Below, piece after piece: positions 15,677-56,050 of a DNA stretch of 64,000 bases. The notes under the pieces are model-generated. The model saw only the letters and a list, made by a program, of their open reading frames with translations, searched no databases and was not told the DNA's origin. How positions within the stretch are numbered: position 1 is the stretch's first letter; every line of letters starts with the position of its first letter. Origin of the DNA: Gemmatirosa kalamazoonensis (lineage in GTDB: Bacteria > Gemmatimonadota > Gemmatimonadetes > Gemmatimonadales > Gemmatimonadaceae); the NCBI RefSeq assembly GCF_000522985.1, contig NZ_CP007128.1, forward strand, positions 3,394,220-3,458,219, in the 5' to 3' direction. The translations under genes were made by a program, and so were the position numbers.

Positions 15677-15684
15677 GGCTCTCT

Positions 15685-15759
15685 ACGCTCCCCGCTCCAC
15701 GCTCCACGCTCGGCCCGTTCGCGGCGCGTGGCGAGCGTGGAGCGTGGAGCGGGGAGCGT
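15685..15759. repeat. Long hairpin of GAGCGTG-type heptamers (locus 1)
   Basis: Left arm 15685-15711 and right arm 15733-15759 are perfect reverse complements over 27 bp, with a 21-base loop. Both arms are built from near-tandem 7-bp words (CTCCACG / GAGCGTG) with one variant unit (CCCCG/CGGGG) that is mirrored in both arms. It lies between prmC and the ylbF-like gene, whose ATG is 15 bases past the hairpin. It can act as a terminator or mRNA-end structure. The same word family forms a second hairpin at 55136-55211. Confidence 0.8.
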
Positions 15760-15773
15760 GGAGAAACCCGGAT

Positions 15774-32155: not shown

Positions 32156-32248
32156 AGGGCACGAGGGCAGGAGGGCCCGCGCGAAACGCGCGAGGGCAGG
32201 AGAACTCGGAAGCTCTCCTGCCCTCGTGCCCTCATGCCCTCGTGCCCT
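32156..32248. repeat. Hairpin tract of AGGGCAGG/AGGGCACG octamers (locus 1)
   Basis: Outer arms 32156-32176 and 32228-32248 pair over 20 of 21 bases; an inner hairpin of 12 perfect base pairs (32192-32203 with 32214-32225) is nested inside, and a short GCGCG stem lies between. The words AGGGCAGG and AGGGCACG alternate in the arms. The tract lies between rplI (its stop is inside the right arm) and rsfS. The same word family forms a hairpin at 54166-54261. Likely an mRNA terminator or intergenic mobile-type repeat. Confidence 0.75.
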
Positions 32249-49568: not shown

Positions 49569-49639
49569 TTGCCCCGCGTGGATTCGAACCACGATCTTCC
49601 GGTCCAAAGCCGGAGGTCCTGCCATTGAACGACGGGGCA
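49569..49639 (-). tRNA. tRNA-Gln (anticodon TTG)
   Basis: Transcribed strand gives a cloverleaf of 71 nt: acceptor stem TGCCCCG paired with CGGGGCA (U1-A72, the weak pair typical of tRNA-Gln), D-arm with TTCAATGGCAGGA, anticodon stem TCCGG/CCGGA with loop CTTTGGA (anticodon TTG, reading CAA, and CAG by wobble), T-arm CGTGG-TTCGAAT-CCACG and discriminator A. CCA is not encoded. Sits between ispE and prs. Confidence 0.93.
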
Positions 49640-53721: not shown

Positions 53722-54165
53722 GTGAGCGTGGGAAAGATAGTCGCCTCCGTCGCGGCAACTGCCGCAATCCTGCTGGCCGCCTGCCGCACCGCCCCAGCCG
53801 TCGGCGGCGCCGGCGCGCCGAGCGCTACGGGCGCCGTGCAGGAGTTTCTCGCCGCCGCGCACGCCGGCGACGTCCGCACGATGGCGTCGCTGTTCGGCAC
53901 GTCGAGCGGCCCGATCTCGTCGCGCGACGACGCCAACACCGTGGAGAAGCGCATGCGCGCCCTCCAGTGCTACCTCACCCACGACTCGGCGCAGGTGGTC
54001 GACGACCGGCCGGGCAACAGCGGTCCCGGGCGCCAGCTCGAGGTGGAGCTGCGTCAGCGCGGCCTCGTGCGCCGGACGACGTTCACCGCCGTGCCGGGTC
54101 CGCACGACCGGTGGTACGTGGAGTCGTTCGACATCGCGAAGGTGACCGACCTCTGCCATCCCTGA
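53722..54165 (+). CDS. Small lipoprotein, SnoaL/NTF2-like layout
   Basis: 147 residues from GTG 53722 (or GTG 53728). Lipobox LLAAC (Cys21). The body has a [21 protein letters not shown] helix pair, then strands [17 protein letters not shown] and [19 protein letters not shown], the order seen in NTF2-like folds. No catalytic residues can be assigned. Envelope-anchored; role unknown. The stop is immediately followed by the AGGGCAGG hairpin. Confidence 0.6.
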
Positions 54166-54261
54166 CAGGGCAGGAGGGCAGGAGGGCAGGAGGGCAGGAG
54201 GGCAGGAGCGAGAAGACCGTGACCCTCTCCTGCCCTCCTGCCCTCGTGCCCTCCTGCCCTG
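54166..54261. repeat. Hairpin of tandem AGGGCAGG octamers (locus 2)
   Basis: Left arm 54166-54200 consists of tandem AGGGCAGG units (five in all to 54207); right arm 54227-54261 is its reverse complement with one mismatch. It lies between the lipoprotein stop and the convergent mce gene and can act as a bidirectional terminator. Same word family as 32156-32248. Confidence 0.8.
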
Positions 54262-54284
54262 GAAGCCCGCCCTTGGTCGGTGTT

Positions 54285-54698
54285 TTAGTATTCAGATAGT
54301 TCGACGAGCACGCCGGCGGTCGCGCTCGGGTGGAGGAAGGCGATGCGCTTGCCTTCCGCCCCGATGCGCGGCCGCTCGTCGATGAGGCGGATGCCTGCCG
54401 CGCGACAGCGCGCGAGCGTTCCGTCCAGGTCGTCGACGGCGAAGCAGATGTGGTGGATGCCGGGGCCGCGCTTGGCGAGGAACTTCCCGATCGGGGAGCT
54501 CTCGTCGGCCGGCTCGAGCAGCTCCACGAGCGACTCGCCGGCGACGAGCCCCGCGATGCGGGCCCCGTCGGCGTCGTCGAGGGGCGTCTCGGGCATCCCC
54601 AGCACGTCCCGGTAGAACGGCAGGATCTCGTCGAGCGCGCGCACCGCGAGGCCCACGTGGGCGATGCGGGTGCCGCGCGCGGCGGGCTTCTCTGGCAT
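54285..54698 (-). CDS. mce: Methylmalonyl-CoA epimerase
   Basis: 137 residues, the usual length. Glyoxalase fold: [41 protein letters not shown]-type second half ([14 protein letters not shown]), '[17 protein letters not shown]' at the end with metal ligands His in IAHVG and HHIC and Glu in VELSE. Interconverts R- and S-methylmalonyl-CoA in propionate metabolism. Divergent from trxA with a 92-bp gap. Confidence 0.93.
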
Positions 54699-54790: not shown

Positions 54791-55114
54791 ATGGCGAACG
54801 TGAACGCGGTGACGGATTCGACTTTCCAGTCGGAGGTCGAGCAGCACGAGGGGCTCGCGGTGGTCGACTTCTGGGCGACGTGGTGCGGCCCCTGCCGCAT
54901 GATCGCGCCGATCGTCGATCAGCTGGCCACGGAGTACGCGGGCAAGGCGAAGGTGCTGAAGCTCGACGTCGACTCGAACCAGTCGACGGCGATGCGGTTC
55001 AACATCCGCTCCATCCCGCAGGTGCTCTTCTTCAAGAACGGCAAGGTCGTCGACACCGTGATCGGCGCCGTGCCGCGCTCGACGCTCGAGGCGAAGTTCA
55101 AGCAGCACGCCTGA
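54791..55114 (+). CDS. trxA: Thioredoxin
   Basis: 107 residues. Active site WCGPC (FWATWCGPCRMIAP), cis-Pro in IRSIPQVLFFKNGK and the family's VDSN-T-A-x-x-F region. GGAGGA lies near the ATG. Reduces protein disulfides in the cytosol. Its stop is followed within 22 bases by the GAGCGTG hairpin. Confidence 0.97.
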   Translation: MANVNAVTDSTFQSEVEQHEGLAVVDFWATWCGPCRMIAPIVDQLATEYAGKAKVLKLDVDSNQSTAMRFNIRSIPQVLFFKNGKVVDTVIGAVPRSTLEAKFKQHA

Positions 55115-55135
55115 TCGAGAACCGGAGTTCGCTCC

Positions 55136-55211
55136 ACGCTCCACGCTCCACGCTCCACGCTCGCCATCTCGCGGCGGGCGTAGCGAGCGTGGAGCGTGGA
55201 GCGTGGAGCGT
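55136..55211. repeat. Long hairpin of GAGCGTG heptamers (locus 2) touching the rsmI start
   Basis: Left arm 55136-55164 and right arm 55183-55211 are perfect complements over 29 bp, loop 18 bases. The arms are four tandem GCTCCAC / GTGGAGC units. The rsmI ATG (55214) begins three bases past the hairpin, so the only GGAG near it is in the right arm and would be masked when folded. Confidence 0.85.
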
Positions 55212-55213
55212 TT

Positions 55214-56050
55214 ATGGCAGGAACGTTGTTCGTGGTCAGCACCCCCATCGGCAACCTCGGCGACATGACGCACCGGGGCGCCGAGGTGCTCGCGTCGGTG
55301 GCGGCGATCCTGGCCGAGGACACCCGGCACAGTCGGTCGCTCCTCGATGCGTACGAGGTGCGCACGCCGATGCTCGCCTATCACGAGCACAACGAGGCGC
55401 GCATGACGCCGCAGATCGTGGAGCGGCTGCGGGGCGGCGAGAGCTTCGCGCTCGTCTCGGACGCGGGGACGCCGCTGCTCTCCGATCCCGGCGCGCGGCT
55501 CGTCGCGGCGGCGATCGACGCCGGCATCGCGGTGAGCCCGGTGCCCGGCGCGTCGGCGCTGCTCGCCGCGCTCGTCGCGTCCGGGCTCGACGCGACGCGG
55601 TTCACGTTCTACGGCTTTCTCGCCCGCAAGGGACGCGAGCGGGGCGAGGCGATCGAGGCGATCGCCGCGTCGCGCCACACCGCCGTGCTCTACGAGGCGC
55701 CGGGGCGCGTGGGTGCGACGCTCGCCGACCTGGCGGACGCCGGCGCCGCCGAGCGGCCCGCGGCCGTGGCCCGCGAGTTGACGAAAACCTTCGAGGAGAT
55801 CCGACGGGGAACGGTCGGGGCGCTCGGTGCGTATTACGCGGAGCAGGCCCCGCGCGGTGAGGTCGTGATCGTCGTGGGCGGTGCCGGAGATGCGCCGGCA
55901 CCCGACGAGGCGACGCTCCGTGCGCGCGCGGCCGCGCTCCGCTCGGCGGGCGCGACCCCGCGCGACGTCGGCCGGGCGCTCGTGGCCGAGTTCGGGATCG
56001 GGCGCAACGAGGCGTATCGCATCGCGCAGGCGACGGATGACCCGACGTAG
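55214..56050 (+). CDS. rsmI: 16S rRNA (cytidine1402-2'-O)-methyltransferase
   Basis: 278 residues from ATG 55214; the in-frame GTG/ATG further up reads through the hairpin arm. Tetrapyrrole-methylase fold: LFVVSTPIGNLGDMTHRGAEVL, AEDTRHSRSLLDAY, YHEHNE, 'LVSDAGTPLLSDPGARLV' and VPGASALLAALVASGL, then EAPGRV. It methylates C1402 in the decoding centre. C-terminal about 55 residues form the small helical domain often added in long RsmI proteins. Confidence 0.96.
   Translation: MAGTLFVVSTPIGNLGDMTHRGAEVLASVAAILAEDTRHSRSLLDAYEVRTPMLAYHEHNEARMTPQIVERLRGGESFALVSDAGTPLLSDPGARLVAAAIDAGIAVSPVPGASALLAALVASGLDATRFTFYGFLARKGRERGEAIEAIAASRHTAVLYEAPGRVGATLADLADAGAAERPAAVARELTKTFEEIRRGTVGALGAYYAEQAPRGEVVIVVGGAGDAPAPDEATLRARAAALRSAGATPRDVGRALVAEFGIGRNEAYRIAQATDDPT

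Follow-up and report, generated by a model that had tools for sequence, protein, structure and literature searches.

Inverted octamer arrays at gene ends of Gemmatirosa kalamazoonensis: candidate two-way 3'-end structures

The locus

The window, a stretch of 64,000 nucleotides of Gemmatirosa kalamazoonensis DNA, contains an inverted array of octamer words that takes up most of the gap separating two convergent genes. The features at this site are:

53722..54165, + strand: upstream convergent gene, 147 aa, with a lipobox-like start (by eye)
54166-54200 and 54227-54261: inverted-repeat arms, 35 nt each, 97% complementary, 26 nt spacing
54167..54208, + strand: G-rich arm, 5.2 exact tandem copies of AGGGCAGG (tandem-repeat search)
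54209..54226, no strand: apex/loop region separating the two word arrays
54227..54260, + strand: C-rich arm, 4.2 copies of CTCCTGCC with 92% matches
54285..54698, - strand: downstream convergent gene, methylmalonyl-CoA epimerase (TIGR03081, 129 bits, cut-off 115)

The initial annotation described an octamer hairpin in which a five-unit left array pairs with a reverse-complement arm over 35 nt with one mismatch, and the inverted- and tandem-repeat searches confirmed it. The words of the C-rich arm are the reverse complement of those on the left, with one variant, CTCGTGCC. Because the left array exceeds the right by one word, two pairing registers are possible. The RNA fold of positions 54150-54290 is very stable on either strand, at -101.7 kcal/mol on the + strand (z -9.15; none of 200 shuffles equally stable) and -101.8 kcal/mol on the - strand (z -8.79). 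The TGA stop of the 147-aa gene (54163-54165) lies 2 nt before the first GGGCAGG of the array, and the TAA stop of the epimerase gene lies 23 nt from its right arm. The 147-aa gene has no NCBIfam match, and the trained gene caller puts its start at 53836 rather than at 53722. In an Rfam 15 scan of the window at the gathering score the sole match is a tRNA at 49569-49639; the hairpins match no Rfam family, which rules out a known RNA family.

The window holds three further hairpins of related design, listed here with the genes that flank the last of them:

15680..15764, + strand: GAGCGTG-family hairpin, 3 nt past a stop codon, C-rich arm first
32156..32248, + strand: second AGGGCAGG/AGGGCACG hairpin of the window (inverted-repeat search)
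54791-55114: thioredoxin gene (TIGR01068)
55130..55211, + strand: GAGCGTG-family hairpin in the thioredoxin/rsmI gap, C-rich arm first
55226-56050: 16S rRNA 2'-O-methyltransferase gene rsmI (TIGR00096)

The hairpin at 32156-32248 abuts the stop of a minus-strand gene on its right and carries a CGCG-AAA-CGCG side stem within its left arm.

Hairpin families in the genome

The G. kalamazoonensis KBS708 genome was sequenced with long reads (PMC3974934) and consists of 7,479,215 bp in four contigs (5,311,527; 1,106,233; 1,040,503; and 20,952 bp). The word AGGGCAGGAGGGCAGG, allowing up to two mismatches and counting overlapping registers as separate occurrences, is found 331+399 times genome-wide versus 6+5 times for the reversed word, an abundance far beyond chance. 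To the initial annotation the octamer hairpin was a second intergenic family beside the GAGCGTG hairpins, in a genome that repeatedly builds long hairpins from tandem short words. The latter proposal is well supported: a sample of 864 kb in all, made up of 40 position-chosen 20-kb stretches and the window, contains other loci of this design in abundance, with 96 inverted repeats scoring at least 18 versus 1 in a first-order Markov control, and 98 hairpins when a shorter seed is used. Sorted by hand-written word lists, these 98 hairpins fall under 15 named word groups, with 7 left unassigned. Thus the octamer and GAGCGTG hairpins are both present, but two families is too low a count, since the sample hairpins fall into over a dozen groups. 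Self-similarity of at least 75% at a period of 6-15 is seen in 40 of the 98 sample arms and in 1 of 98 shuffled arms; the GGATCC-GATC group (10 sample hairpins) is palindromic and not clearly tandem.

For the AGGGCAGG family, 71 arrays were collected, after removal of arrays less than 400 bases from the end of a locus and of duplicates with the same flank. Most were fetched for containing the word and the set is thus non-random; the random-sample count is 6. Two arms are present in 66 of the 71, and most arrays are intergenic. The family is therefore a high-copy extragenic palindrome. A longer element (~125-170 bp), ending in CTCCACGTACG and containing GGACTGAAG words, was also seen (L032 4859-4986, L036 7199-7334, L042 6834-6958, and others). 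The GGACTGAAG-word group, of which 7 of 12 sample copies lie between convergent genes, looks like a separate repeat family.

Placement and polarity

Genes in the sample were called with a custom codon-usage model trained on the sample, not with Prodigal. By these calls, 53 of the 98 sample hairpins lie between co-directional genes, 26 between convergent and 8 between divergent genes, 9 are mostly inside called genes, and 2 are at an edge. Considering only gaps of at least 70 bp, a hairpin of any family is present in 22 of the 44 between convergent genes, 50 of the 212 between co-directional genes, and 8 of the 89 between divergent genes. When convergent pairs of any gap size are counted, 24 of 95 have a hairpin and 71 have none; a hairpin is thus not required at gene ends.

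The AGGGCAGG arrays are placed tightly against stop codons. Leaving out 4 copies mostly within coding sequence, the distance from array to stop is 10 nt or less in 77 of 86 cases, and 19 arrays lie at -1, where the AG of a TAG stop is also part of the word. Between co-directional genes with a residual gap of at least 30 nt, 15 of 18 arrays have the stop no more than 10 nt away, versus the 2.3 that even placement predicts, and the distances to start codons are broad (3-224 nt). Only 4 of the 66 two-armed copies were called between divergent genes, and 4 are mostly inside called genes. The stops beside AGGGCAGG hairpins (n=82) are TGA in 38, TAG in 24, and TAA in 20 cases; those of all sample genes are TGA in 533, TAG in 127, and TAA in 53. 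As a side observation, TAA stops are commoner beside these hairpins than among called genes (20/82 versus 53/713). Placement is looser for the CACGGAGGA group and the GATC palindromes, which are found at greater distances from stops and in divergent gaps too; function may therefore not be common to all word groups.

The arms have a strong polarity. In 65 of the 66 two-armed AGGGCAGG arrays the G-rich arm leads. Taking all 98 hairpins of the sample, G outnumbers C in the 5' arm of 87 and C outnumbers G in 7, with 4 ties; GAGCGTG members account for 3 of the 7 exceptions. As this polarity is identical on both strands, both convergent transcripts would meet the G-rich arm first. Variant words are partly mirrored: the same variant is present on both arms at 13 of 58 variant positions (shuffle mean 2.7, maximum 8 in 2000 shuffles), and the other 45 have no match on the opposite arm. 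The apex is 13 nt long in 33 of the 66 two-armed arrays, and 23 of these 33 apices have another apex at most one mismatch away, a relatedness that points to whole hairpins having been copied and then diverged. A CGCG side stem is present in 15 of the 66.

Gene ends in related genomes

The exact AGGGCAGG hairpin pattern was found in the own genome only and in 0 of 58 relatives; a scan of 84,980 GTDB species genomes, among which the own genome may be left out, gave none. Orthologous gene ends were compared at 30 loci per protein, drawn from 32 (epimerase), 34 (RuvB), 32 (LexA), and 33 (FTCD) matched genomes.

In the epimerase slot, 26 of 29 relatives retain a homologue of the convergent partner, and none of these 26 carries AGGGCAGG there. 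The relatives' gaps range from -7 to 179 bp, three of them 9 nt or less, and the folds of many are no better than those of shuffles; three relatives (L308, L309, L310) have a small stem beginning at the stop codon. In a separate case (L299, relative G003), the 179-bp gap is nearly all hairpin from the TAG stop onward, with a fold of -105 kcal/mol (z -8.1).

The LexA slot likewise keeps its convergent partner in 26 of 29 relatives, and AGGGCAGG is absent from all 26. Many of the gaps are only 0-13 nt; the gap folds have z < -2 in 12 of the 26. By eye, U-tract hairpins are present in three relatives (L351, L357, L363) and a clear GGCTGAT-word hairpin in a fourth (L365); long hairpins of other sequence occupy the slot in three more (L356, L360, L370). 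At orthologous gene ends, then, ordinary hairpins are replaced by the word hairpins. The RuvB slot is uninformative as evidence, its convergent partner being kept in 1 of 30 loci, the own one. In the FTCD slot 13 of 30 loci, counting the own one, retain the partner. Past the FTCD gene of relative G002 (L390), tandem GGGAATC, the Xanthomonas heptamer, was observed at the gene end.

Other words are used in the same way in some members of the family. Arrays of TGAGGGGC occur in 1 of 34 family genomes (G009), where the word supplies the TGA stop at two hairpins (L409, L416), and GGCTGAT arrays occur in 2 of 34. All the two-armed copies are G-first or TGATGGC-first (3/3 in G009 and 4/4 in G002). 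In 200 kb of G015, 17 hairpins are made of yet other words, whereas samples of G021, G022, G011, and G028 have no such hairpins. Thus hairpins of tandem words reappear in some genera, built from different words, and are missing from the sequence sampled in others. Furthermore, the tandem word C(A/G)(C/G)(A/G)GAGGA, which defines another group of this genome, is found in many phyla in at least 120 stretches; among the matches listed, 30 of 80 loci have a hairpin scoring at least 14, and some others look coding or purely direct-repeat. A literature search gave no report of such hairpins in Gemmatimonadota, and searching by six of the sequence words yielded one unrelated primer paper.

Candidate function and alternatives

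The AGGGCAGG hairpins are probably species-specific, copied, U-less structures that serve gene 3' ends in both directions, by termination and/or by blocking exonucleases. This two-way reading draws on position, polarity, and the orthologous slots, taken together with the literature on U-less 3' ends. More generally, the tandem-word hairpins are probably gene-end, terminator-like structures, because they sit almost on stop codons where relatives carry ordinary or differently worded hairpins.

In the proposed mechanism, the transcript of either flanking gene would run through the G-rich arm right past the stop and fold into a very stable stem-loop; as the DNA is an inverted repeat, one hairpin could serve both convergent genes. 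The AGGGCAGG hairpins have the GC-rich stem-loop past the gene that is expected of an intrinsic terminator. Directly past the stem, however, the U-tract is absent (T makes up 21% of the 10 nt downstream of 106 hairpin ends versus 15% of intergenic DNA), and no terminator-like site was found at 50-60 kb of the window. These hairpins are therefore not standard intrinsic terminators, and a canonical Rho-independent terminator is ruled out. Rho is present in the genome (profile match, 660 bits). The missing U-tract together with Rho would make fixing or protection of the mRNA 3' end the likeliest action: the hairpin would block 3'-5' exonucleases after Rho-dependent termination and/or stop RNA polymerase as a U-less hairpin. 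A point against this reading is that a hairpin 10 nt or less past a stop codon is within the footprint of the terminating ribosome. In E. coli, REPs located near stop codons affect that ribosome. A polymerase stop, 3'-end protection, or an effect on the terminating ribosome may all fit the hairpins. Precedents are described in two reports, in which Rho-terminated mRNA 3' ends are shielded from exonucleases by stem-loops and U-less structured 3' ends are common in a Streptomyces of 72.5% GC (PMC8269248, PMC9927376). As to origin, copies may have spread within the genome when entire hairpins were copied or converted, with slippage lengthening and shortening the word array.

A broader and more tentative version is that these are self-spreading terminators: in each lineage of Gemmatimonadaceae one or more short words would amplify, spread by copying of inverted arrays with no REP transposase involved, and capture gene 3' ends one after another. 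If so, each genus would write many of its gene ends, even stop codons, in its own word, and repeat families would have captured a basic signal of gene expression, using a different word from one genus to the next.

The hairpins might instead be selfish REP-like palindromes copied by a transposase, their position reflecting insertion preference and purging from genes and promoters, with no useful job. High copy number, intergenic position, species-specific sequence, and related apices all agree with this, as do the looser placement of the CACGGAGGA group and GATC palindromes and the TAG stops contributed by AGGGCAGG, which GTAG REPs are likewise described as often supplying (PMC3733652). RAYT-mobilized REPs are nevertheless ruled out by the absence of a Y1 transposase: the Y1_Tnp/RAYT model (PF01797) has 0 matches in the own genome and is positive in 5 of 14 control genomes. 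The stop distance is also far tighter than even placement in the gaps would give, unrelated words share the same position and mostly the same arm polarity, and relatives have ordinary hairpins at the same slots. A selfish origin without function is on balance unlikely.

That the arrays are a mutational by-product, with slippage generating the words, hairpin-templated repair copying them to the other arm, and gene ends tolerating the outcome, is improbable. It would account for the differing number of words among copies and arms and for the excess of mirrored variants, but not for the recurrence of one word, with related apices, at many unrelated loci, nor for the tight stop distance and one-sided polarity.

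Most improbable of all is that the GGG runs of AGGGCAGG form DNA or RNA G-quadruplexes to which the inverted copy is secondary: the left arm does have five GGG runs five bases apart, fitting the G3N1-7 rule for G4-forming sequence, but GGG runs are missing from most other words of this genome (GGACTGAAGAA, CGCAGAGGA, GAGCGTG, GCTGCGTG) and from the G002 word GGCTGAT, which form the same kind of hairpin in similar places, and nearly all the collected AGGGCAGG arrays are two-armed. The precedent for quadruplexes is the Xanthomonas GGGAATC array, oligonucleotides of which are described as forming G4 in vitro and which also lies near stops on the sense strand (PMC4692102).

Relation to known repeat systems

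Several known systems resemble the 3'-end hairpins proposed here in part. The integron attC site has RYYYAAC and GTTRRRY boxes at the two ends of its hairpin. It is ruled out, as the array ends are AGGGCAGG/CCTGCCCT and GTTAGGC appears only in some apices or flanks; GTTAGGC/GCCTAAC, though abundant, is mostly coding, on both strands, and unpaired. This motif occurs 615 times in the sample, roughly once per 1.4 kb, and 496 of these copies, of either orientation, fall within called genes. The octamer CGTTAGGC was separately noted 2275+2194 times in the own genome versus 70+63 times for the reversed word (in the window at, for example, 1793, 3299, 3733, 44441, and 44463), and resembles a DNA-uptake sequence or HIP1-like signature. 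Its count greatly exceeds the control in 9 other family genomes (e.g., G019, G020, G027, G030) and in G054, but in most others it falls far short of the control. On contig C95 of relative G035 it recurs about every 0.6 kb on one strand, in what looks like an integron cassette (attC) array, unlike the dispersed occurrences in the own genome.

The TAACTGA repeats of Beggiatoaceae are, like the word arrays, built of an abundant intergenic 7-bp tandem word, and their forward repeats contain stop codons, but they are described as direct rather than inverted and as lying mostly upstream of start codons (PMC4679880). The U-less ("I-shaped") hairpins share a strong GC-rich post-gene stem, the lack of a U-tract, a GC-rich genome, and Rho; as reported they are unrelated singles, whereas those described here are two-way and belong to repeated word families (PMC8269248, PMC9927376). 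REP/BIME elements, with their GTAG/CGTC tags and RAYT, are likewise high-copy, species-specific intergenic palindromes near or over stops. They are described as single palindromes of 20-40 bp, in contrast to the 35-bp tandem-word arms here, for which there is no Y1 transposase and no obligatory tag was seen (PMC3733652).

The closest printed case is that of the GGGAATC / GGGGA(C/T)T heptamer arrays of Xanthomonas and Nostoc, which in the account of Rehm et al. 2015 (PMC4692102) are tandem and intergenic, rare between divergent genes, and next to neighbors of unrelated function, their own function being left open there. In Xanthomonas, 186 and 183 arrays per genome are reported, with inverted pairs in 70 and 75 cases (PMC4692102). 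The likeness to the present arrays includes short G-rich tandem words, a place near stops, a sense-strand preference, and partial inversion, and the GGGACTC word of this genome fits their GGGANTN pattern. The differences are that i) the unit here is the 8-bp AGGGCAGG rather than a 7-bp GGGNATC-type unit; ii) the AGGGCAGG arrays are almost always two-armed (66/71) and within 10 nt of stops; and iii) many word groups coexist in one genome, most of them unable to form G3 quadruplexes. Compared with the Xanthomonas and Nostoc arrays, to which no function is assigned, the orthologous slots examined here point to 3' ends. The AGGGCAGG family, its near-fixed stop distance and polarity, and the ordinary terminators of relatives make a 3'-end role directly testable. 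Tandem-word arrays near stops are thus already known from Xanthomonas and Nostoc (PMC4692102), and the two-armed AGGGCAGG family is the variant added here.
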